A DNA stretch of 64,000 nucleotides from Thelephora terrestris. Its lineage: Eukaryota > Basidiomycota > Agaricomycetes > Thelephorales > Thelephoraceae. The notes below the pieces were generated by a model. That model saw nothing but the letters and a program-made list of their open reading frames with translations. It searched no databases and had not been told where the DNA came from. Below, piece after piece: positions 3,780 to 58,259 of this stretch. The translations under genes and the position numbers were made by a program. The stretch is taken from the NCBI GenBank assembly GCA_015956445.1, contig WIUZ02000004.1:806001-870000 (forward strand), given 5' to 3'. The first letter of the stretch is position 1. Every line of letters begins with the position of its first letter.

Positions 3780-5630
3780 CTATACGCACCCTGTACTTGA
3801 TTTTGTTTGTTCCATGTCCACCGTGCTCTCAATCACGCTCTTCACCAGATCCACATCCGCTGATTCAACGTCAATCACCCGTTGTCGCTTCTGTAACAAA
3901 CCCCGGAACTCCTCTGGGAGCACGTCGCGGTCGAAATCGAATGCAGCGGACGATCTCAAAGCTTTGGCAACAGCTTCTGAGAACTTGGCTGGATGTGCGG
4001 TGGAAAGTGAGACTTGGATGAGTGAAGAGCTCAACCTGGTCCAGAGAATATCAGATGTCTCGCGAATACCGGATTTCCGCCTGAGCGACATACTCTGACT
4101 CTGAGGCAGTGATTTGAGCAGCTGTCAATCCAACGGCGGTATGAGGATCAACGATGTAAGAGGGCTCTGACTCATAGAGCCTCCTTATCGTTGACAGTGT
4201 CTGTGTAGGTCGTTCGTTGAAAATTCGTGGAACGGTGGGTTCCAAACACCCTCACCTGGTCGTCAGAAACCCGCTCAGCGATAAAGTCTCGCTTGGCGAG
4301 TTCAAGGGCTTTTCGGGGCACCTCAACTCGACCGTTGGACTTGACGCTTTTCATCCACCCGTCGACCATGGCGCATGCGTCATCCACAGTTCCTCCACCC
4401 TCTGCTTCGTAGGCAAGATACCACAATAACCTCTCGAAGTTGCTTGAAACGAGGATATCCATGGCGGGACTGAGAGTTTCTTTCACAGCATCCTTTCCAT
4501 CAGAAATTCCGCTTGCGGGGGCAGCAGCTGTTTCAGCCTCCAACTCGACACGTTCGTATTTCCCAGTTTTCCAGAACCGCGCAAGAATATCATTCGAGTT
4601 CGTCGCGATGATGAGCTTATCCGTGGGAAGACCCATGCGCTTTGCATAATATCCTGCCAGAACGTCACCGAAGTTACCCGTCGGGACGACGTATTGGATT
4701 CGCGCTCCAGGAGAGATCGCCTGGACACGGAAATACGAAAGGAAGTAGTATACCGTTTGGGCGAGAATCCTGGCCCAGTTGATGGAGTTCACCGCTCCCA
4801 GGCGATGTTTTTCGTTGAATTCCTTATCTCCGAAGAGTGCCTTGACGACGTCCTAGGCCTCAAATTAGCTAGGCCACGGAAGCTGGTTCTGTTGCGAAAC
4901 AAACCTGGCAATCATCAAATGTTCCTTTGACAGCGATGTTGTGGACGTTTGCATCGGTAATTGTGGTCATTTGAGCTTGCTGAATGGGAGAGATACGACC
5001 CTTTGGATGGAGAATGAAGATCGAAATATTTTCCTTGTTTCGAAGACCGTAAATCGCGGCACTAAGAGTCTTCAGCAAGCGGGTTATCGTGACAGAATTA
5101 GATGCATACCTTCCAGTATCTCCACTGGTCGCTCCAACCACGGTCAATTTTTCCCTCGGTTCTCCGCTCGACTTCTTCGCGTTCCTCCTGACCAGGAAGT
5201 ATTCGAACAGATTTCCAAGAAGCTGAAGGGCGACATCCTTGAAAGCAAACGTCGGACCGTGGAAAAGTTCAAGGACGAACAGTTTTTCGTTCAATTTCTG
5301 AAGCGGCGTGATGTCTGGATGGCGGAACGTGCCGTAGGATTTCTCGACCAGTTTCCGTAGATCATCGCGAGGTATCTCGTCTTCGGAGATGTAAAGAGAT
5401 AGGACCTCGACGGCTAGATCCACGAATGAAAGGGATTTCCATTTCTCCTGCCAATTTGAAGGGAGAGAGGGGATAGATTCTGGAATGTACAATCCTCCGT
5501 TTGGTGCGAGTCCGGTGAGGACGGTCTAAGCAGGCGATCCAGAGTCAGTATAGAGGAGGATGGGTTTCCGTAAACGTACGTCTTCGAACGAGAGCCGTTC
5601 CGAGCCTCCTCTAGTCGAAAAATATTTCAT
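3780..5630 (-). CDS. THR4: Threonine synthase
   Basis: This PLP enzyme converts O-phosphohomoserine to threonine, the last step of threonine synthesis. The start is MKYFSTRGGSERLSFED (ATG 5628-5630) in a short first exon (5580-5630), then a 54-nt intron, then TVLTGLAPNGGLYIPES. The PLP-lysine motif GPTFAFKDVALQLLGN, the phosphate-binding GATSGDTG, GAVNSINWARILAQTVYY and VVPTGNFGDVLAGYYAKRMG are all present in order. The C-terminus STAHPAKFSEAV also matches the fungal family. Introns interrupt after SGDTG, before the GAVNSINW exon, after SDDQ, and before the last exon. Family length is about 510-520 residues, which this model meets. It is divergent from the Asterix gene. Confidence 0.95.
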
Positions 5631-20891: not shown

Positions 20892-23800
20892 ATGTCTGGA
20901 AAAGCCCCGCCACGGGCTCCGAGGGCGTTGTTGACCTCACTAGCTCAAGCCAATGCTGCGTCCTCGAGTTCGACGTCTTCAAACACGACACCAAACACGT
21001 CTACCCCCGTTCGGCACCCCATCCCTACTGGACCGAGAAGTCTTACCAACGGTGGAATACAAAGACCGAAATCGTTTCTGAATGGTTTCCTAATGCCTGT
21101 GCCGTCGCTCAAGGGCAAAGAAGTCGACTACAGCGACATTGCACTTCCAAGTCAGGACCAATCCAATCTCGCCACTGTACGCGCATCCTAGCAATGTGGT
21201 TTTTAAAATCGACATCTAACGGATTAGACAGGTTAATGGAGACGAGCCACGACCACCGTCGTCGAAACCACCGCCCCTGCCGCCCCTTTCGATACAACCG
21301 CCTCCACCCCCGCCTCCTCTTCCACCCCCGCCAGATTTAGCGCCGCCACCGCCACCACCATCTACCTCCCCGCAACCTAGACCTCCCCCAGATGCACCAC
21401 CCACTCTACCTCCTCCCCCTCCGCCCCCACCAGACTCACAACCCCCACCCCCTCCACCCCCTTCTGATCCGCGACCACCTCCATTGCCGACCTTGCCCGC
21501 GAAACATGTAATGCAACCCATCCACTTCTCGAAACCCTTAAAGCCAAATCTGATATTACATTCCCCGGTGAGATCACCCGAACCCTCTCCTTTGCCAAAG
21601 CCACTACCAGAGCCCGCGGCCAGACCGCCCTCTCCCCAAATTCCATCACCTCCTGCTCCGCTGCACGTTGAAGAATCCTCATCCCCACCCCCGCCACCGA
21701 AGTCTCCCTCACCTGCACCTGTCTATAGTTTACCATCTCCACCGCCTTGGCCGACCAGTCGATCCGAATTCCCCACACGCGAACGAACCCACAAGATTCT
21801 GTTCGACGCATCCGTCGACAAAGATCGGGACGGTCGCTTCCGTCAATTGATTGAGAAGATTCAGCAGTTAGATCCGAACTCAGAACACAGAATCAAGGGG
21901 AAAGGAAAAGGGAAGGAATTGTTGTATCGGTATGAGGGTGAAGTGGTGGAAGGTGAGCACATGCCGCCTATACGAGATCCGAGGAAGGTTCCAGGTACGA
22001 GGAGGTTACAATCTCTGAGACCTGGAAGAGGGGAATTTCATATCATCAAATACGAAGTAAGTGTATTCGGTCCTCGTGGATTTAAGGTTTACCTCATGGC
22101 TCTGCTAGCACGATCAGCATTCAGTTGGACCACCTCCTCCCACGGCAGTCTTGGCAGTTAATATCTCCCCGCTCACGTCAAACCAACAAATCCGTCGACA
22201 TTTTGCCGTTCATGGTCGTATTCTTTCGTTTGAACCAGAAATAGACAAGACCACTGGTAGCGCATTGGGGATTGTGTACATCAAGTTCTCAACACACGAC
22301 GAAGCGAAGATATGCGTGGAGAAGGAGCATGGTGGAAAGAGCAATGGTCAAGGTTCAACGCTGAGTATCCAAACTATACCTGGCGAAGAACTCAAAGTTG
22401 TTCTCGACGATGATGCCAAATCGAAACTCAGGGCGATCTTGAGGGAGCTGGATGACCGAAGACGGAAGGGAAAAGAGGCTGCTTTAATTAAGAAAAAGGA
22501 GGCTGAAGCCGGAGAGCGTCGAAAAAAGGAGGAGGAGCTGGCTGCGAGGAAGGAGGCAGAAGAGGCAAGAAGAACCCGACCCTCTACGCAGCCTGAACCC
22601 CGACATCGTAGCATTCTTCCCCCAACACGCCATCCACTACCTGCTCATCCTGGGCCTGCTGCTTCAGCTGTCCCAGAATCCAAGCCTCCCCCGCCTGCTC
22701 TGTTACGGACAAGGAATCTGCATTCCACCACAAGGTACTCTTCCCGACCAACTCTGTCCCTACATGACCATTCCTCTTCATCCACACCTATCCACACGAG
22801 AAGCCGACCAAGTGATCGATACAGTGGCCGATCAAGCCACTACTCACGGAGTCGGCACTCCCCTCGTCGGTACTCCCGATCCCGTTCCCGCTCATATTCA
22901 AGATCGAGATCACGATCGAGGTCCCCCTCACCGATCTCCCGCAAACCTGGTCAGTCATCACGGTCCCTCGGAAGGCAAAGTCAACGAGAAGTCGTGGACG
23001 CTGAGCTCGAACGTAATGGCAACGAGTACGTAACGATTGAGGAATCCGGGGGTGGCCAGCTTGGCTCGCATGTGAAGGAAGAGGACGTGCGGCGTTTCTT
23101 CGACGGGTTCAAGGTAGACAAGGTGCGCACCCAACCAACCTCCCCCTGAAAACGTTTTCACTGACGAGGTGTAATTTTGATTCGGCTACGTATTTGTCCC
23201 TCTCCAGGTTCTCCGCGACCACCTTGGATGGTGCGTGACGTTCCAAACGTCGGATTCCGCACGGAAAGCAAAGACGGTGCTGAACGCAGGCACCCGTACC
23301 TTAGCTCACACATCGGTTATGCTAAGTGTTCACACCCCTCCGTCATCATGGACCCCATCTATGCGCGCTGCTGCACCTTCCGCTCGAGAAACCTCGAGGC
23401 GGTGGCGGGACGGCGACATAGCCGAAGAGGCTGAGCGACTCATCCTGAAGGAGCTGCGGACGCTTTTGGAGAGAGATGTGATGGACAGGGTGATTGGCGT
23501 CAAGCTTCGGCAGATGGTCACTGACGAGAAGGAGCGGAAAGCGAGAGGTGTAAAAGTTGACTTCTTGGAAGGCGATGCTGCGTCCGAGGAGAAAGAAAAA
23601 CGGGGGCTCAAAGGGCTTTCCTTCAAGAAGAACAGGGTTGTCAAACCCCAACCTCCACCTACCGTAGAAGAACACTCGGTAACAGAAGTGAGTCCGAGTC
23701 GAGAGGCAGACGAGGATCAAGTGGATGAGCTCGAGGCGGTACAAAGACCAAAGAAAAGGCAAAGGGTTGTCACTGAGGACGTCACCGAGCCTGAGCTCGA

Positions 23801-25095
23801 AGTCTCCCCGGCTGTCGAGGAAGTCGAGGAAGATGACAGCGCCCTTTCCCTGCAGGACAACATAGCGAAGAGAAAGGAGCCCCCACTGGCAGACTCTGAG
23901 GACGTCCGCCCTATCAAGAAGTCGAAGGCGACCGACAAGAAGAAGGCCGAGAGTAAACCGACGGCCGTCGAGGAGCAGTCACCTACGCCAGATGTCGTTA
24001 TTCCTGGGGATATCGATTTCGAGGTCCCCGTCATCACAGAAGTCCGCCTTTCTCCCGAGAGAGACTCCTCAGCCTTTGCCACTCCAGAACCCACTTCCAG
24101 TTGGTCTGACCCGATCAGGGATGGGTTGTTCGAGGATGACGAAGACATGTACTTTGCCAAGCTCGCTCTTTCACGAACATCGGACGGTGAATTTATCGTC
24201 CCCCTCCCTCGTGTATCGGCAGAGGAAGAATCTGATCCCGACGCGCCCCCGCCTTTTCGAGTTCATTCCACTGGGTCCGCTCGCACCGAAGGATATTACA
24301 AGATTACCCACGCCGAGAAAACAGCTTATGTCACGCAATACACCGCCCAGGCAAAGGCCGCCAACAAGGACGTCATTCCCGAACCCGCTGTTGTTGCCCC
24401 AACCCCTACAGTCACGTCCTCGCGTTCCAACCGCGCAAACGCTAGGAGACGCGCCCAGGGTATCGAAGAAATCAACCAAATGCAGCGAGCTATGCAGTTG
24501 TCTCTGGGAGAAACACCGGCTACGGATCAGGTCAAGTTCAATCAGCTCCAGACACGCAAAAAGCATCTCCGGTTCGCTCGGTCCCCCATTCACGACTGGG
24601 GTCTATATGCCATGGAACGGATCGCGCGCGGAGAGATGGTCATCGAGTACGTGGGGGAGGTCATCCGTGCGGCCGTCGCCGACAAAAGAGAGAAGGCGTA
24701 CGAGAGACAGGGAATTGGGAGTAGTTACCTCTTCAGGATTGATGAAGACCTGGTGGTTGATGCTACGAAGAAAGGCAACCTTGGGTATGTACTGGCCCTG
24801 CTATGCTCTGACAGTTTTGTTGACTTGACATGTGACCACAGACGGCTCATTAACCACTCCTGTGACCCGAATTGCACGGCTAAGATCATCACCATCAGTG
24901 GTGTGAAGAAGATTGTCATTTATGCCAAGCAAGAGATAGAGTTGGGGGATGAAATCACATACGGTGCGTCCTAAGCTTCTAGTGAGGCCATTGAACTGAC
25001 CCGGATTCTTGCTCCCAGATTATCATTTCCCAATAGAACAAGATAAGATTCCATGCCTGTGTGGATCTGCGAAATGTCGCGGCTATCTAAACTGA
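20892..25095 (+). CDS. SET1: Histone H3 lysine-4 methyltransferase Set1 (COMPASS catalytic subunit)
   Basis: About 1300 residues in roughly six exons, starting [20 protein letters not shown]. Order: a Ser/Thr-rich start; a long polyproline region (21251-21760); the Set1 N-terminal segment ([18 protein letters not shown]); an RRM-like domain ([20 protein letters not shown], then [14 protein letters not shown]); a lysine-rich coiled stretch; an RS-rich run; a second RNA-binding-like unit ([18 protein letters not shown]); acidic linkers; the N-SET domain ([20 protein letters not shown]). It ends with the SET domain ([68 protein letters not shown]) and post-SET C-x-C-xxxx-C ([13 protein letters not shown]). 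It mono-, di- and trimethylates H3K4. The final Cys-rich exon is separated by a short intron near 24965-25018. Confidence 0.95.
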
Positions 25096-45500: not shown

Positions 45501-48500
45501 GTTCCTTGCTACCTTTTCCATCGTCGAAACGCCATCGACGGGTAACGAGGCTTCAACATTTTTGTCGGACAGGAAGCAACTCTTGCGGTCCTTTAACAAC
45601 CGGTTTGAAGCCGCTTCCTATCCGTTGTTGGTTTTGGTGTGTGGGCTCTTATCCACAAAGGATTATACTACTCTTTGTCCCCTCCTTTGGTCAAATTCCT
45701 TAGCAGACTCTGATCCCAAAATCCTTGCCCCTGTGCGTAGTGACGTCTCCCTAACTCTGACTTCGACTGATCCACTATCAGACGTGCTTTCTAGCTATGC
45801 AATGCGCTGAGAAATGCGGGCAGGATTTCATCAAATGCATCACAGATGACATTTCAAGGTACATACCATTATTTTCCCTCTAGGTATCTCGGTTGAGCTC
45901 CTTATAGCGATAACCCGGGCTTGAGGCATTCGGCGATCGACAAGGTGGCCAAACTGATCAGCTGGAGGTTTCAAATCGGTTCGCAAGTTGTCATCCTTGA
46001 CAAAATCTACAAGCGTCCATTCAAGATGGCCCGCCCATCGATAGCTTTTGTTCCCATGGATATCGGCTCGCCGCTGTTTATCAAGGAGCAAGATGGGACC
46101 ACCGACGACAATAAAAACACGCTCCCGCTCGAACTACGCAAGCGGCTCCTGGAAATTGGATGGGACGATGAGGAAGGGCCACTAGACCAAAGATTGGAGT
46201 GGGCTACAACACCGATGTCCCTCATACCAAGCACGGACCTGGCGAGGGTCGACAACGATGATACCTTTTCCGTAGCAATTCAGCGCCTGGTCTACGATAC
46301 CGCAACGAAGCCAGCCGAACGAGAGGTTTCCATGACAAGGCAGTTAACAACTGATGTGGTAGCCAAACGGCGACCGGTTCTCGTCACGTCCCTGCTTTCC
46401 ATTTTCCCCCAGGTCGTTTCCCTCAATCTTGACCCAGATTTTGTCATCGCAAACGCTGCCCGTAATCTGTTGCTAGAGCTCATGCGCGATGACCCTGCAT
46501 CTCTTTGCCGTCCAGTGCTATCCGCCATGACTGGTAGGGGGGACGAAATGAGCTCTGCTATCTCTACGCTGCGGGAATTCACCCACATCTCACATCGCCT
46601 TCCTCCCGCCACTACGCATTTCGTGTTCGCTCACCTCACCGGATATCTCAAATTCGCTGCGCGGCAAATGGAGACGATTGAAGCTTTGCATGGATTTGCC
46701 TATACGGTTCCCATATTGTCCAAGTTAGTCTCTCAAGTCAACGGCATGGTGATGCGGGAAGTCCGGAAGGCAAAATTGGAGGTTTTTCTTGTTCCTAACC
46801 TGTCATTGTGGTTCCCGCCGACTGCCCCTATCTCCCCAATGTTTCCTCAGTCTCTCGGTGGCATACGCGACTCGTCTACCGCCGCTTCCAAACTCCGCTG
46901 GATGACGATGATCCGAACGGCTCAGAATACCCTATTCCTCTCCATGTTGAAAAAGAACCCGCAAGATGTTCATGCGATTCGGAAGAACCTCGAGGGGTTC
47001 TCCCTGCCTGGGGATGACAATGGCTGGCCCACAAATTTGGCTGACTTTATACCAAAACTGAAGGGCGACCAACGTCAAAGGATAAGGAGCCCGGTCGTCT
47101 ATGGACTTTCGCTGGTCTTATCCCGAAGTTACCTCCTGCTCGTCGCCCAGATTTTTCGATCGATGTCACGGCACACGAATAACAGAGAAGAATTCAGCCT
47201 CCTTGTGGACGGTATCAATCGGATCCTCCTTGTTCACGGGGACGACCTTGGCATAGTGGCTCAGGCGATGATCGGTCAGTTATGCCAAAATTGGGTGTTT
47301 TGCATCTAAGCCTCCTTCACAGCGTTGATGATCGCTAGTACTCGCTTCCGACGGCTGTTTGTTTCTGCTGGTGGATACACGCTATTCATGCCTGCAATAT
47401 TCAAGTCCTATTCCCAGTCTCGCAAGGAATCCGCGATCCGGTTGGCCATCGAATATGGAATTAATCGGTTCTACGCTCAGCACGAAGAGGCCTTCGTCTT
47501 CCAGACTCTCGACGTCCTGTCCCTCATAATTTTTCGGAGAGAGTGTACCGACCAATCCAAGGCTGCGGAGGATGTCTTCAACCTCTTATCCACGCTCAGG
47601 AACACGGCCCCGCAAAATGTGCCAGATCCTGCGGGAATCCATGACGCCAATAAGGTGCATGAATATGAATCCCTGCTAGTGAGCAAGGTCGAGGTCGAGC
47701 CGCACGGTTTCTTAGAGAGAGTACGATCTTCAAAAGGCGAGGCGATCGAACTCCCATTGACGGAGGAACCGGCTGGAAAAGCCTTCAGCGACGACGACAT
47801 GGCACGTCTATTCCTCACAGTCATCGCTCATAACCCGGATATCTACCGCGCACAACTATTCCTCACCATGTTCCGGTACTTTGCACCGCACATATGTGTT
47901 GTGAGCAAGGAAGCCAGGACGGTCGTGACCGAAGGGACAGAGGCCCTTGGATCGATTCTCCTTTCAAAAGTTGGGAAGACGAAACTACCAGATTCGGTGC
48001 ATTCTCGATCAGAAAAGGATCTGAATTTGGAGGATTTTGACAGGCCCATGGATTCCAGTCCTGACGACACGAAGCACCCGAATTCACCTTCTGACCTCCT
48101 GGCGATGCGTTTGGAGTACCTATCCCTGGTGGAAGCCCTCGCCCGACAGGGGGCACAGTTGAGGCCGGCTGGGTTTTATCGAGTCTGGGAGTTAGTGAAG
48201 GTCATTTTCAAGGAAGCTCGCGTCGCAACAGCCCAGATTGGCGATTTCATAGGGAAATGGACAGAAGCTTCCCTGCTCCGCAACAGGACTGCATCCTTGA
48301 GGTTTGTTCTCACCTTCCTTCAAGAACTCGCCCCGGTCCTCCGCTCTATCCTCCCAACTGCAGATCTCTCACTTGTTCTACGCGCCGTTGCTCGGCTTGC
48401 CCAAGACTCTCAGCATTCGAGCGACCCGGCCTTTATGAGCGCTGTGACATCTATTTGCAGCTCCTCCCTTGATGCCTTCAGTTCTATGATCGAGAATTCT

Positions 48501-49877
48501 GACCCGATTTCGCGAGAGATGCAGGCGAGTATCGTGGAATTGATGAAGGGGTGTATATGGGTGGCTGGCGAGGATGTTTTGTCCCCGCTTGAAAGGAGGA
48601 AACCTTCTTACGAGCTCTTATCCGGGGTCGTCCTGCCATTCGCGTTGAGCCTGAAAACGTCTGCTCAGGCTGTGGCGGAGAACGACCTTGCTCACGCTAA
48701 GAATCGGCACACATATCCACGTGTTTGGGTCCGGGTCCTTGCCTATGCCGTTTTGGCGTGCCAGGGAAATGCTAGAGGATCACCGGCCTCGCAGGGAGAG
48801 AAGGGGGCTGAGGACGATCGAGAGGAGAGGTTGGCACTGACGATGGCCGTTGGGCTACAGATAATCAAAGTGGTGGCGATCAGAGCTGGCGACGATGTGA
48901 CTTCCATCCTCCCTGACGTTTGGTGCAGAACTGGAATGGTCCTGAGGGAGGCCTTGAAGGGGGGCAACGCGGCCTTCGCCTCCTCCGCCGGTGACTACTC
49001 CCAGCCTGGCTCACCATTCCAGTCGCCGTCTGTGTCCCCCCGCGCTTCGATGGCGGTAGAACAAACGGGTACCCTCGTCTTCCCTCCTTCACGAAGAACA
49101 AGCACCATCGTTCGGCCAAGAATTCTGGATTATATGATGTGGTCGCTGTTCGAGGTCCTTTGTGTTCATCGAACCCAGCTCCTGTTGGAGATGCGATCGA
49201 TGATGCAAGAAAAGGTCAGGATCCTGGAAGACCAACTCAAGATAGAGAGGCCAGCCTTCCGTCCTACATCAAGCCAGTTCGGTTCTCGCCCCAACTCGGG
49301 GCTTTTTTCAAAACGCGGTCGATCCTCGAGATACCAAGCCATGACCACACCAGATCAGTCGCCAAGGACCCGAACAACGAGCCTGATGTCGTTCGATCCA
49401 GACGTATCCAACATGGCCGTTCGGGGCCGGGATCCTGGATACCTCTACTCTTCGCCTTCCTCTACGTCCCCGGCAGTCGGACTCCCGAACATAGTCCACC
49501 TCGGGCCTGTCAGACATTCCGCTATGTTCAGAGCCTTGGAACATGAGGGGGGCGGTACAATTCAACTGCCACAGTCCGTCGTGATCAAGTCTGCATCCCT
49601 CACCCGTGCTGTATTCAGGAAGATCAGGCGCATTCAGGCGTATCTGGGTTACAGCAGTCTGTTACCAAACCCCGATTCGCTGAGCGTGGACGATGATTCC
49701 GTGGATGTTTCTGGATGGACGAAAGTACGGATCTTGCGGTCGATCATTGACGAGACCAGGGCGTTGGTAGACGAGTTTAGTAAAAGGGCGAACAGTGGCG
49801 AGGACTTTGAGTTTGATGATGTTGGGGACAACACCGTGGTTGTAGATACGGAGAATCCATTCACTTCTGTAGCATAG
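42595..49877 (+). CDS. Giant helical-repeat protein, possibly fungal UNC80-like
   Basis: About 2200 residues in perhaps ten exons, starting MSLLPPIKRPSGGRPL. A disordered Ser/Pro-rich N-terminus leads into alpha-helical repeats (LDDMRKFALELERACVQL, LLRTLEQYEASLLHLPRI). Middle exons carry LAIESILKCVAYGSLKSRAW, LLLIAKRHPQIFFKPLFL, LGHCVVVVELISRLRTL. The long final exons contain VLVTSLLSIFPQVVSLNLD, NAARNLLLELMRDDPASL, then AIRLAIEYGINRFYAQHEEA, VFQTLDVLSLIIFRREC. A gene-end Ser-rich segment and KVRILRSIIDETRALVDEFS follow. The layout and the IEYGINRFYAQHE block remind me of the UNC80 C-terminal family found in some fungi; UNC80 scaffolds the NALCN channel in animals. This assignment is tentative. 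HEAT-type cell-polarity scaffolds (Tao3/Mor2) are an alternative. Confidence 0.7.
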
Positions 49878-51937: not shown

Positions 51938-54900
51938 ATGTCTTCATCTAAGCTTAAACCCTCTCAGTCTAAAGAGAATCTCAAACAGAAGAGTCTCATG
52001 TCCTTCTTCTCCAAAGGTCCGCAGACGCAGACGCCAGTGACCCCAGCGGCGAAGCGGCGTCTTCCAGACACATCCTCAGACGCCCCTCTATCTTCTTCGC
52101 CGTTGAAGCAGACTCCGAACCTTCGCAAGGCTAGTTCTTCCTCGGTCATGAGCGCGACGTTCACTGGCTCCTCCGATGGAAAGAGTTACCGTACGGGGAG
52201 CCCTCCTCCCAACAGCGACGTTTTAGATGTCGATATGCTCTCTGACGCAGAAGAACAACCCCAGAAGGTATGTCTATCTGTCTTTGCTCTATGGTAATGT
52301 ATACGATTAGATTTCGCATCGCAGCGAATCAAGAGAAAGGTTTCCGTTCAATACTCTGATGAAAGTGATTCAGTCCTCGCAAAGGCTCCTGGAAAAACGA
52401 AGAAACGCCGTATTATGAGAGCTTCGTCGGAGGGGCCTGAAGAGGATGAAGAAGTTCCTATCGGGGGTAAGGCATTCACAGAGAAGCTCCAGAAGTTCAA
52501 GAAACCTCCGCAGAAGAAGGTGCCATGTATGCGCTTCCTCAGATTCCTCATTGCTCATGACCTCCGCTAACAACCCGCCCAGACAAGAAACGCAAGCCAG
52601 TCGATGAGGACGACTTTATTGTTCCCGACGGCGCGAGCGATTCAGACGTCGCTTCCATCCCTTCTGAGGGTGATCGACGCTCGACATCTCGATCATCCGC
52701 GCGCTCCGCCTCTGGTATGGACTCGGACGAAGATGAGGAGGACGAGGTACCAAAGCGAAAAAAGTCTGCTCCAAAGCCTTCCGCGAAGTCACAGACTTCG
52801 AACCCTGCCGCTGTAGCTTCCTCGCCGTTCCTGACCGCCGCGGAGAGGAACATGCAGGACAAGAAGTTGGAGAAGAAGAATGTTGAAAAGCCTTTTGGTT
52901 TCCTCCGAGATATCAAAGACAAGGACGGAATTCGACCTGGAGAACCTGGATACGATCCAAGGACCATCTTTATTCCTAAAGCTTCTTGGGCAGAGTTCAC
53001 CCCTTTCGAGAAACAGGTATGACGATTCAGGTTTTTCCGCGGGATATCCAGTTCACCCGTGGGTTACTAGTTCTGGGAAATCAAGCAGAACCATTATGAT
53101 ACCGTGGGTGTTACCAACGCCTTTCCTTCCCTCGATCCACTGACACTTTCAATTTAGATCTTGTTCTTCCAAAAAGGGTATGTGTTGTTCTTCTATGAGG
53201 CGGTCTATCTGATTGAAAGTTTTTGCTCCACCACTAGAAAATTCTTGGAGGTAAATGCGATTCGTATCATCAACATCGCTTGCTGACTCGGTCGTTACAG
53301 CTGTACGAAGAGGATGCGATTGTTGGTCACCGCGAGTTTGACCTCAAGCTCACACAACGCGTCAAAATGTCCATGGTCGGAGTTCCTGAAATGTCGTTCA
53401 ACTTTTGGGCTGCGTATGTTTTTTCTCCTTTTTGCTTGTTTTCTCGTCGTTGCTGACGTCCGACCCAGGAAATTCTTGGGCAAAGGTCAGGACTGGTGCG
53501 GGTATTTGCAACCCACACGCTGACCAAAGTTCGATAGGATACAAGGTGGGGCGTGTCGACCAAGCAGAGACAGCACTCGGTGCAGAAATGCGCCTTGCCG
53601 CAGACAAGGGCAAGGGTAAGAAGGCTCCGGCGAAGAGTGGGGGGGACAAGATCGTAAAGCGGTTTGTCATTCTCCGCCGCCATAGTCCAAGGTTGCTCAC
53701 GAGCAGTTCAGAGAACTACACAAGGTGTATACAAACGGGACTCTCGTCGACGAAGAACTCCTCACGGACGATCAAGCTGGTCACTGTATCTCGATCCGCG
53801 AGGGTAGCGGGAAAGACGAGGAGGACGCATTCGGGATATGCGTGCTGGACAGTTCCACCTCGGAGTTCAATCTCAGCGCTTTCACCGACGATGTTTGTCG
53901 AACAAAGTTGGAGACCATGTTAAGGCAGTTGCGACCCAAGGAAATCCTTTTCACCAAGGTTGACCAATCTTTTGGGCTGGTTTCTATACCGACTAACTTG
54001 TAACGGCAGGGTGCGTTGTCCGTTTCGACCACGAGGCTTCTCAAGATGATCCTACCATCGGGGTGTCTGTGGACGGCTCTGCGAGATGTCGAAGGGTTCA
54101 CCTACAATACGACCCTGGAAGAGCTGAAAAAGATGTATCCCCCTGGCGAAGATGATGACATGACCGACGACGTCCTTCCTTCCAGCGTCCCTGAGGCCAT
54201 TCGCAGTATGCTTGGAATGAAGGCTCCGATGGAGGCTTTGGGAGCAATGCTCTGGTACCTGCGTCAGCTCAATATCGACAAGGATATCATGAGCATGAGA
54301 AACTTCAACGTGTATGACCCAATGAAGAGAGGCCAAGGTTTGGTACTTGACGGACAGACCCTTGCTCATGTCGAAGTGGGTATCATAATCTGTGTTTCCC
54401 TTACGTCTCTCACCCTTTTGATGCAGGTCCTCGTTAACAGCGAGGGGACCGAGGACGGGACATTGTTGAAGCTGCTGGGGAGGTGCATGACACCGTCAGG
54501 TTCGTCCGTTCGCCACGCCCCGATGGACTTTTCTGATGATCACGCGATAGGGAAGCGCTTGTTCCGGATATGGCTTTGTATGCCCCTTCGCCAGCCGGAG
54601 GACATCGGCGCAAGGTACGGTTCTCTGGCACGACTACCCAGAGCATTTTGAGACGCTCTGCGCAGGTTGGACGCGGTGGAAGATCTGATGAACAACCCTG
54701 CGTTTGAGGAAGAGTTTACGGCGCTCGTCAAGGGTCTCCCCGATCTCGAACGGATTGTCTCTCGTATCCACGCCAAGAATTGCAAGGTCAAGGATTTCTT
54801 GCACGCTCTCAACGTGAGTTCGCAAGGTGTCTGACGTGTTGCACAGCTGATGAATTGTGTGCCATAGTCTTTCAGAAAGCTGAGCAAGGGCTTGAAGGCG

Positions 54901-57174
54901 CTCGAGAATGCTGCCGAGGGTTTCAAGTCAAAGAACATCTCTGGGCTGTTGAGGTCAGCACCGGATCTGATCCCGAACATTAAACACGTCCAGGATATGT
55001 TTGTGCGAGCGGAGAAAGAGAAAGTATCAGGTAAAGGTCTTCTGCATCAACACCGTGGGAATGATAATAACGTGAAGTTCCGCAGACCCCGACCAACTTC
55101 TGCCGGTGGCTGGGAAGGATAAAGTGTATGACGAAGTACAAGAGGAGATCGAAACGTGGGAACAGAGTTTGGATGAGGAGTTGACAAAGTTAGAAAAACA
55201 AGTGGGGTCAGTGAGTTCAATATTCCAGCCACATCATCCACCTCACTCTCTCCCTAGCTTCAAACTCTCCTACTGGCACAGTCACGTCGGAAACAAGGTA
55301 TCAGTTTAAATTATATATAGACTGTGGGACCAACTGACCTCGCGCAGGATATCTACCTGGTCCAGACGAACGCCAATCAAAAGAAAGTTCCCGCGGATTG
55401 GATCAAGAGCGGGGGTACTAAGGTGGGCTTCAGGCGGTGTCGACCAGCCCAGATTGTTGACCGCATGGTTAGGCTGTCTCGAGATGGAAAGTCAACTCCC
55501 TGGTTCCGATGATTCGAAGCCTGAAGGAGGCGACCGAGAACCGGAACCAAGCTATCAAAACGTTCAAGAACAGGCTGTTCGCCGAATTCGATGCAGATCG
55601 CGGCGTGTGGCTCCGCGCTGTCCGAGTGTTATCTGAACTCGACTGTTTGATATCGTTGGCCAAGTCTTCGGTGGCGCTCGGGGAACCGAGATGCAGGCCG
55701 GAGATCGCGGAAGGAGAGAGCGCGTTCGTGGATTTCAAAGAATTGAGGCACCCCGCCTTAAGTGCGAGCGAGAGATTGAAAGGTGATTTCATTCCGAACG
55801 ACGTTCAGCTCGGTGGAGACAAAGGGAAGATTGCGTTGTTGACAGGTTCGTTAGTTTATTTTTCGGCTGTCAACGGACCTGAATGCCGGTGTTCCCACAG
55901 GCCCGAACATGGGGTGAGGCCCTATCAGCCTGTGACTCTTCTGATCTTCTGACCGTCTTTTGTCCTCGGCGAACAGTGGGAAGTCTACGGTGAGTTTGTA
56001 AAGGTTCCCCCCGTGAGAGCGGTGATCGCTCATGGCTCTCGTCATAGGTTATGAGAATGACTGCTGCAGGCGTGGTCGGTATCCCCGGTCCTCGGCTCAT
56101 CTTTCCTCAGCTGATCACACCCTTCAGATAATGGCTCAACTTGGGATGTTCGTCCCGGCCTCGAGTGCCCGGTTAGTATCCGTGCCAGGCTGCATTCTCG
56201 CGTTCGCGCTGATCGTTCCGTTATGGACTAGCATTTGTCCCGTGGACACGATTCTTACACGTATGGGCGCGTATGACAACATGTTTTCGAACGCTAGTAC
56301 CTTCAAGGTCGAACTCGATGAATGGTTCGCATCGTTCCTACAAAATTTTTGGGGTCATGGACGCCAGACGCTCATTCATTCTTCTAATAGTTGCAAGATT
56401 CTCAGGGATGCAACGCCGAAGTCATTGGTCATTCTCGATGGTGAGGTCGACGCCGCTGCGGATTCATTCGCGCTCGATGTGACTTGTTTGTTCTTGCAGA
56501 ACTCGGAAGGGGTACTTCGACGTACGACGGCATGGCGATTGCAGGGGTACGTCATCTATTCAGTCAGCTGCTTCTGAATCTAAACAGTTACTACCCAGGC
56601 GGTGCTACACCAACTCGCGACGCACACGCTATCGTTATCTTTCTTCGCAACCCATTATGGCTCATTGACGGACGACTTTGCATATCATCCAAACATCCGC
56701 AACATGCACATGAAGACGATGGTGGATGATGAGAAACAAGAGGTCAGCAGATCCTCCATTACTGATTCACCCCTCGGCGTGAGAACGAGTCCGGTTACTA
56801 AAACTCTACCCGATCTCTAGCTCGTTTTTCTATACAAGCTCGTTTCTGGAATCGCATCTTCTTCTTTCGGTACGCACGTTGCGTCACTCGCCGGCGTTCC
56901 TACGACGGTAGTAGACCGGGCCGACGTCGTTTCGAAAGACTTTGCGAAGCAGTTCAAGGAGAAGATCGAAGGGAAGAGGAAGCAAGCCCGATTGCCGTTG
57001 GTCCTCCAGGCCGACTTTGCATATCTGATGGGGTTGGTGAGCGGGAAGGAGATGTTGCCCGAGGACAGGGCAAAGGCGCGGGAGGTGTTGAAGGGCTTGA
57101 AGGGAGCGGTGAGGACGGGATTACTTCACGCTGCCAGGCCCTCTGCCGCTCCCGCAGCAGCAACGAGGGGATAA
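51938..57174 (+). CDS. MSH6: DNA mismatch-repair protein Msh6 (MutS-alpha subunit)
   Basis: Starts [17 protein letters not shown]; the N-terminus has a PCNA-binding PIP box (QKSLMSFF). A disordered Ser/acidic linker leads to [37 protein letters not shown]. The mismatch-reading motif is G-K-F-L-E-L-Y-E-E-D. Connector, lever and clamp parts follow ([34 protein letters not shown] region intron-split). ATPase: Walker A T-G-P-N-M-G-G-K-S-T-V, VPASSARI, Walker [47 protein letters not shown]. With Msh2 it recognises mismatches and small loops. More than 15 exons; four are micro-exons (20, 13, 13 and 13 nt, listed separately). Stop 57172-57174. Confidence 0.94.
53158..53177 (+). other. MSH6: MSH6 micro-exon, 20 nt
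   Basis: Bounded by tttag and gtatgt; encodes I-L-F-F-Q-K and part of the following glycine. Skipping it would shift the frame just before the mismatch-binding motif. Confidence 0.75.
53238..53250 (+). other. MSH6: MSH6 micro-exon, 13 nt, carrying the Phe-x-Glu mismatch motif
   Basis: Bounded by cactag and gtaaat. Sequence AAAATTCTTGGAG completes the glycine codon and encodes K-F-L-E, the MutS-family mismatch-wedging Phe and Glu. The next exon continues L-Y-E-E-D-A. Confidence 0.8.
55901..55913 (+). other. MSH6: MSH6 micro-exon, 13 nt, first half of Walker A loop
   Basis: Bounded by cccacag and gtgagg; encodes P-N-M plus two bases of the next Gly, after T-G from the preceding exon. Confidence 0.72.
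55977..55989 (+). other. MSH6: MSH6 micro-exon, 13 nt, second half of Walker A loop
   Basis: Bounded by gaacag and gtgagt; completes Gly and encodes G-K-S-T, the phosphate-binding core. The next exon starts V-M-R-M-T-A-A-G-V. Confidence 0.72.
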
Positions 57175-57333: not shown

Positions 57334-58140
57334 TCAAGTAGATGAATATAGATCAAACTCCCAGGGAACTCGCTGATCCAGGGGCCAGGTTTCGGAGAGC
57401 CAAATCCTACGCAGCCTGCACGTGGCGTAAACCTTGATGTAAGAGACATGCGAGAAGGTGCCACTTGGCACGGGACGAATCGGGCCAGCGGGCCACTCAT
57501 GATCTGGGGTGGACAAGAGTCTCGACGCGGAAAAAGATGGAAGATAGGTGGCGACGTTCAGATCCACACTGCACCACGAGGTTAGGGGGAGTGACGAAGT
57601 AGGCGGAAACATGAGTGGGAGATGGAGAAGCGGTGGCGTATCTGAAGACAGTTTCAATGACGGATGTTTCTAAAGGAGGAGCCGAGATGAGTAACGGGCA
57701 GGAACGGGGTGCAGAGAAGCCGTTACCTTGAATGTGGAACACCGAATGATTCCCTCTCGACCTGCGTGATCAACTATACCAAGTTCGAAAGACCATTCGC
57801 GGCCTAGCCGTTTTACTTGAATGTGGAGCCACGGGTGCTTGAGATGGAGATCTGAATGGACAGAGGGACACCGGATGTAGGTGGTAGGTAGGGTGGGCGA
57901 CTGAATATGAAGGACGGTCTGGTCTAGTCTCGTCCTCTGCCTTGCAGTGGACTCATCTTCAGATACCAGAGTCTGGTCTCTCGGGGGTGGCGGAAGGGAG
58001 GTTTCGTCATTGAGTAGATGAATGAAAGAGTCTTCGGGAAGAGCGTCATCTTTCTGGACTGTCCAAAGGCCGGCGAGCGGGTCAGAACCTGTAGACGAAA
58101 AGAGGGAAACGATGCTCGGTTGGAACGAACTCGAGAACAT
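57334..58140 (-). CDS. CFA20-domain protein, CFAP20 family
   Basis: Starts MFSSSFQPSIVSLFSSTGSD + PLAGLW, closely matching the CFAP20 start (MFSNTFQSGF...GSKPLQIW). Core matches: TTYIRCPSVHSDLHLKHPWL and HIQVKRLGREWSFELGIVDH + the strand REGIIRCSTF. One GT-AG intron (57669-57726) joins FK to KHPSLKLSSDTPPLLHLPL. The C-terminus SYIKVYATCRLRRIWLSETW + PLDQRVPWEFDLY parallels CFAP20's [20 protein letters not shown] + DELPAEFKLYLP. About 249 residues versus about 193 in animals; the extra length is an acidic Ser/Pro loop near residues 30-75. In ciliates, algae and animals CFAP20 sits at the inner junction of axonemal doublets; dikaryotic fungi have no axoneme, so this copy must do something else. 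Divergent from FMT1 (119 bp). Confidence 0.8.
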
Positions 58141-58259
58141 GGTCGCGCAGAGTTGAAGCTACATGTCCATTTTCGATCACACCCGGTGTGGAGATTGTGA
58201 CGTCACGCGGCAAGAAAGCCATCCCGCCGCCAACGCGCACAGCTGAACAAAGAACGCCA
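58141..58259. promoter_or_regulatory. 119-bp divergent promoter, CFA20-domain gene / FMT1
   Basis: Start codons face away from each other across 119 bp, which contains a tgacgtcacg palindrome-like core (CRE-type TGACGTCA at about 58198-58205). This could bind an ATF/CREB-type bZIP factor; short-motif match only. Confidence 0.5.

Follow-up and report, generated by a model that had tools for sequence, protein, structure and literature searches.

The locus considered here, a 64,000-nucleotide (nt) stretch of the Thelephora terrestris genome (contig WIUZ02000004.1, positions 806,001 to 870,000; hereafter the window, whose numbering is used throughout), raises the question of whether a mismatch repair gene can carry its active-site motifs on exons as short as 13 nt and, if so, whether this places mismatch repair under the control of splicing. 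The gene concerned is MSH6, and the motifs are the mismatch-reading loop and the Walker A loop. It is very probably a normal, intact MSH6 in an intron-dense gene, whose micro-exons result from ordinary intron crowding and are presumably spliced constitutively. An initial annotation of the locus had proposed that four micro-exons split the two motifs and that splicing fidelity directly gates mismatch repair; this interpretation is partly supported, since identity, motifs, borders, phases and the frame shift on skipping hold and the gating is unsupported.

The gene was modelled as follows:

51938..57174, + strand, MSH6 gene: codes for 1246 amino acids (aa) in 28 exons, which are separated by 27 GT-AG introns of 50-78 nt

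The model was assembled by reading frames and consists of a single open frame, with the start at 51938 and the stop codon ending at 57174. Assignment to MSH6 and the match of the joined protein to the MutS family were borne out, given that MutS domains I, II, III and V all scored above the Pfam cut-off in the 1246-aa translation and that among solved structures in the PDB it scores best against chains of human MSH6 (469 and 467 bits), with MSH3 (339 bits) and MSH2 (245 bits) both scoring lower. Aligned to human MSH6, the translation contains the Phe-x-Glu mismatch motif as well as Walker A and Walker B, and the Phe-x-Glu in KFLE presumably has the mismatch-reading role. Near residue 17, the sequence QKSLMSFF fits, by eye, the pattern QxxLxxFF, which we take to be the N-terminal PCNA-binding motif. 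A DNA search of the genome for a second MSH6 copy returned only the gene itself, no Rfam family reached threshold within the window, and a scan of viral contigs yielded five pattern matches, none of which was confirmed as a relative.

Micro-exons in the two motifs and their borders

We call micro-exon an internal exon of 30 nt or less that has splice borders and is needed for the reading frame. Exons are numbered E1 to E28, and those at or near the mismatch-reading loop, together with the intron that divides it, are the following:

53071..53103, + strand, exon E4: 33 nt; its skipping would keep the frame
53158..53177, + strand, micro-exon E5: 20 nt; ILFFQK and two thirds of the Gly340 codon
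53178..53237, + strand, intron 5: 60 nt, without an in-frame stop; its retention would place 20 extra aa between Gly340 and Lys341
53238..53250, + strand, micro-exon E6: 13 nt; last base of the Gly340 codon and KFLE
53469..53485, + strand, micro-exon E8: 17 nt; (A)KFLGK(G); the weakest support among the short exons

The corresponding elements at Walker A are:

55846..55900, + strand, intron 19: phase 1, inside the first Gly of Walker A
55901..55913, + strand, micro-exon E20: 13 nt; two thirds of the Gly986 codon, PNM and two thirds of the Gly990 codon
55977..55989, + strand, micro-exon E21: 13 nt; last base of the Gly990 codon and GKST, including the Walker A Lys992
56048..56074, + strand, short exon E22: 27 nt, just past Walker A; its skipping would keep the frame

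E5, E6, E20 and E21 are each bordered by AG on the left and GT on the right, in the correct phase, as the initial annotation had described them. All four members of that set exist, but two further short exons, E8 (17 nt) and E22 (27 nt), had been overlooked. The frame reads ILFFQKG-KFLE across the E5-E6 junction; GKFLE had been assigned as a whole to the 13-nt exon, and KFLE does lie on E6, but the Gly codon is split, with its first two bases on E5 and its last on E6. At Walker A, TG-PNMG-GKST is read in frame once E19, E20 and E21 are joined, and the motif TGPNMGGKST occupies these three exons (the end of E19, then E20 and E21), not four as had been counted, E22 opening with the next residue, V995.

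A purpose-written spliced aligner, run with human MSH6 as the protein query and with generic splice scores untrained on this gene, reproduced the borders of all six exons no longer than 27 nt, and it agreed exactly with the gene model at 19 of the 24 internal exons from E4 to E27 (E4-E15 and E20-E26). It departs from the model at E16-E19 and E27 and, because of the difference at E16-E19, the 40-nt E17 is given by frame reading alone. Masking of the splice sites lowered the alignment score by 14 points for E5, 16 for E6, 4 for E8, 20 for E20, 28 for E21 and 10 for E22, and under a stiffer intron penalty E8 was lost and the other five exons of 27 nt or less were kept. E8 is the least certain of the short exons, because its masking costs only 4 points and because it does not survive the stiffer penalty.

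The motif content of the micro-exons is not a product of chance to any but a negligible degree. When the E5-E7 gap was shuffled 20000 times with its dinucleotides preserved, no shuffle contained a micro-exon encoding G[KRV]F[YFLW]E, and a 13-nt exon encoding GPN[MAS](G) appeared in 1 of 20000 such shuffles of the E19-E22 gap, while in the alignment the residues carried by the micro-exons match human GKFYE and GPNMGGKST. A crude ab initio predictor, trained on this MSH6 and prone to over-splicing, supplied search queries only, and its micro-exons are not counted as evidence. The micro-exon observation is in this way partly confirmed: the exons are real, and what had to be corrected is the exon count at Walker A, the location of the Gly codon and the omission of E8 and E22.

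Exon number and intron positions compared within the genome

The number of tiny exons was set against a broken-stick null of 27 random cuts in the 3741 nt of MSH6 coding sequence. Three internal exons are no longer than 13 nt, where 2.35 are expected (P 0.42), five measure at most 20 nt, against 3.5 (P 0.26), and six at most 27 nt, against 4.6 (P 0.30); the conserved core taken by itself gives the same answer as the whole gene (4.0 exons of 20 nt or less expected, P 0.36). The micro-exon count of MSH6 is not above chance for its own intron density. Moreover, the presence of micro-exons in motifs is partly expected, because homology reveals micro-exons only where the protein is conserved. In the explanation that we favour, short introns would cluster in the mismatch-reading loop and in the P-loop segment and the coding sequence remaining between them would form constitutive micro-exons of 13-27 nt. 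Gain probably accounts for most of these introns, and intron definition, in which the intron as a whole is the unit of recognition, probably applies to each of the 50-63-nt introns at these two sites, in which case exon size would hardly matter and the micro-exons would normally be joined.

Several results weigh against ordinary intron crowding. Ten other genes of this genome, taken for comparison (MSH2, MSH3, RPB2, six loci of the MCM family and MLH1 in its N-terminal part; loci L015, L016, L024-L030 and L032), were aligned to PDB references. In their aligned parts, the only ones counted, no internal exon measures 20 nt or less, where about 7.8 are expected (Poisson P(0) 0.0004), a comparison in which exons could be missed where stretches of the reference are X and in which the reference for three MCM loci was a paralogue, 43-47% identical. 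The chance of all five exons of 20 nt or less falling in MSH6 by share is 0.004, and the smallest internal exon across the ten genes has 24 nt. Since none of 20 nt or less occurs in these genes, tiny exons seem to be avoided elsewhere and MSH6 stands out, hinting at a general avoidance of tiny exons in this genome. Intron density is 2-8 per kb in the comparison genes, whereas the part of MSH6 that was aligned has about 9. An 18-nt 'exon' at the end of MCM2 and a 24-nt one at the start of L028 were left out as non-internal, since both lie where the aligned reference stops or begins; L028 also had a lower-scoring alignment, to the MCM2 reference, whose last exons were 6 and 16 nt long, and the best-scoring reference was kept. 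In addition, MSH6 introns lie at better-conserved residues than random positions do (local identity 0.444 versus 0.363, P 0.016, a test that ignores clustering), and a 30-residue P-loop segment, chosen post hoc, holds 12 introns in six MSH genes versus 4.2 expected (Poisson 0.001), or 8 versus 3.5 (0.03) when MSH6, which suggested the segment, is removed. At the level of splice sites, intron 7, which precedes E8, has the lowest-scoring donor of all 27, and only one of the 27 acceptors scores below that of intron 20, which precedes E21.

The six MSH loci, found among the best candidates for Pfam MutS_V in the genome, include paralogues to which we assign the names MSH1, MSH4 and MSH5 putatively, by their motifs. 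GPNMxGKS is unbroken on one exon in the MSH2-, MSH3- and MSH1-like genes, and the MSH4- and MSH5-like genes, of which four and nine introns, respectively, were modelled, have the following short exons:

L017:4574-4581 (G000:C6), MSH4-like gene: 8-nt exon (TATGTCAG) inside Walker A, obtained with 3 of 3 references; smaller than the MSH6 exons
L018:4606-4613 (G000:C2), MSH5-like gene: 8-nt exon behind Walker A, obtained with 2 of 3 references
L018:4460-4477 and 4530-4556, MSH5-like gene: 18- and 27-nt exons, obtained only if GC donors are allowed, with 4478-4529 as a candidate GC-AG intron

The MSH4- and MSH5-like genes resemble MSH6 in having tiny exons in or behind Walker A, but their intron positions are unlike those of MSH6. 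Further exons proposed by the aligner for the MSH4-like gene, one of 7 nt and two of 20 nt, came with only 1 of 3 references each and were not used. In the MSH2-like gene, Walker A is on a 41-nt exon preceded by a 24-nt exon (L015:5025-5139, G000:C34), and the intron after the Walker A exon has the same column and phase as an MSH5-like intron.

Intron pairs with the same column and the same phase number 3 among the paralogues versus 0.67 expected (P 0.03), namely MSH6/MSH3 at FEKQ^, MSH2/MSH3, and MSH2/MSH5 at (R/K)Q^T, and because this sharing exceeds expectation some intron positions look old. Variant names, including c.2006-6T>C, place introns at c.2005/2006 of human MSH2 and at c.3438/3439 of human MSH6 (PMC3960061; here and below, excerpts of the cited articles). 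By a mapping that uses human residue numbers and assumed lengths, the human MSH2 intron coincides with intron 19 of the present gene in both residue and phase. The same mapping, again with assumed lengths, puts the human MSH6 intron at the position common to the MSH2- and MSH5-like genes here. Some of the Walker A introns may be old and others may have been added alongside them, with convergent insertion as the alternative. To our knowledge, the human MSH2 and MSH6 exons beside the Walker A introns are long, and we know of no micro-exons there.

Does splicing gate mismatch repair?

Skipping of any one of E5, E6, E20 and E21 shifts the frame, as had been claimed, and each such single skip truncates MSH6. 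The further claim, that splicing gates mismatch repair and could tune the mutation rate, is unsupported, because most mis-splicing truncates MSH6, the splice sites of the micro-exons are on average not weaker than others, and skipping is rare in the coding regions of fungi. Truncation follows from single skips of 20 of the 26 internal exons, the four micro-exons included, and from single retention of 21 of the 27 introns, the frame being kept on retention of the remaining 6. The nine introns flanking short exons have a donor score of 6.18 versus 6.04 for the other 18 and an acceptor score of 4.42 versus 4.33, and a consensus branch site is present in 7 of the 9 versus 7 of the 18.

In Schizophyllum commune, exon skipping makes up 1% of the splice events in coding regions and intron retention 43-44% (PMC5034255). 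Among splicing errors in the coding sequences of fungi, exon skipping is described as the rare class (PMC5034255, PMC2397502), and intron definition has been proposed by inference for basidiomycetes (PMC2397502). With rare skipping and intron definition, the likely failure would be intron retention, and micro-exons would pose no special hazard; we infer constitutive splicing by intron definition for this gene.

It is very unlikely that the micro-exons act as a regulated switch, whereby skipping would lower MSH6 under some conditions and raise the mutation rate. This possibility draws on the truncation caused by a single skip of E5, E6, E20 or E21, on the second-weakest acceptor before E21, on the restriction of exons below 20 nt to MSH6 and the MSH4- and MSH5-like genes, with none in the aligned parts of the ten other genes, and on the precedent of a regulated fungal micro-exon in Xlr2 of Trichoderma virens, which is reported to be glucose-dependent and decides protein function (PMC11121469). 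However, the same truncation results from most other MSH6 exons and introns, the splice sites flanking the micro-exons are on average not weak, exon skipping is the 1% class of S. commune coding events (PMC5034255), and the number of tiny exons fits the intron density of MSH6. The Xlr2 case is alike in being a fungal micro-exon and differs in the glucose dependence reported for it.

Retention of intron 5, or joint skipping of E5 and E6, would instead produce a full-length MSH6 with the Phe-x-Glu loop broken or missing, competent to bind its partner and blind to mismatches. The stop-free intron 5 (60 nt) would add 20 aa, joint loss of E5 and E6 (33 nt) would delete 11 aa in frame (ILFFQKGKFLE), and intron retention is the commonest coding-region event in S. 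commune (PMC5034255). Nevertheless, neither outcome is singled out, because 6 of the 27 introns keep the frame if retained and because only one of the 27 donors is stronger than that of intron 5, and we give very little credence to such a form. Similarly improbable is the broader proposition that the MSH P-loop segment is an intron hotspot and that micro-exons of MSH4, MSH5 and MSH6 make meiotic and mismatch repair splicing-sensitive, with in-frame retention of intron 5 giving a mismatch-blind MSH6. Least probable of all is that the gene model is wrong at the micro-exons and that longer exons or other borders are used, as might be suggested by the other borders favoured by the aligner at E16-E19 and E27 and by the loss of E8 under the stiffer penalty, given that masking each of the four named micro-exons costs 14-28 points, that all four survive that penalty, that shuffles almost never yield such exons, and that the encoded residues match the human motifs.

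Related micro-exons and neighbouring genes

An intact MSH6 with micro-exons probably left by intron crowding can be compared with other fungal genes. In P450 genes of Phanerochaete chrysosporium, micro-exons are widespread, with exons of 2-10 aa and frequent introns of 45-55 bp (PMC1184071), and an 8-nt exon lies inside the I-helix motif AGHETT of a Phanerochaete P450, where it was suggested that micro-exons may be favoured when introns hit conserved motifs (PMC12940212). Exons as short as 1 nt have been described in Cryptococcus (PMC3990503). The MSH6 gene is like the P450 genes in that basidiomycete micro-exons split conserved motifs between short introns, and unlike them in that theirs is a large metabolic family, whereas here a single-copy DNA-repair ATPase is affected, with two separate active-site motifs hit. 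Micro-exons that split motifs have precedents in basidiomycete P450 genes, and this MSH6 is a new instance. Fungal MSH micro-exons were not found in the literature on MSH6 introns in basidiomycetes or on mismatch-repair microexons, as judged by titles and the openings of abstracts.

The gene is a clean example, open to checking, of a repair gene whose motifs are split by micro-exons. It also carries a caution for genome annotation, since a pipeline that discards exons below 20 nt would call MSH4, MSH5 and MSH6 of such a fungus broken, and mismatch repair could then be wrongly taken as lost. Were micro-exon inclusion to vary, the splicing state would be linked to mutation rate and to meiotic recombination.

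Elsewhere in the window, an open reading frame with a CFA20 domain (PF05018, E 1.3e-14) lies just downstream of MSH6, tail-to-tail with it (57670-58158, - strand); the CFA20 family, found here in a fungus, is named for cilia and flagella. Two adjoining long open reading frames (45897-49874, + strand), each with an UNC80_C match above the Pfam cut-off (E 1.1e-8 and 1.6e-7), probably form one large gene. Farther upstream, an RRM open reading frame followed by an N-SET/SET one (22109-24971, + strand) looks like a gene for a Set1/COMPASS methyltransferase.

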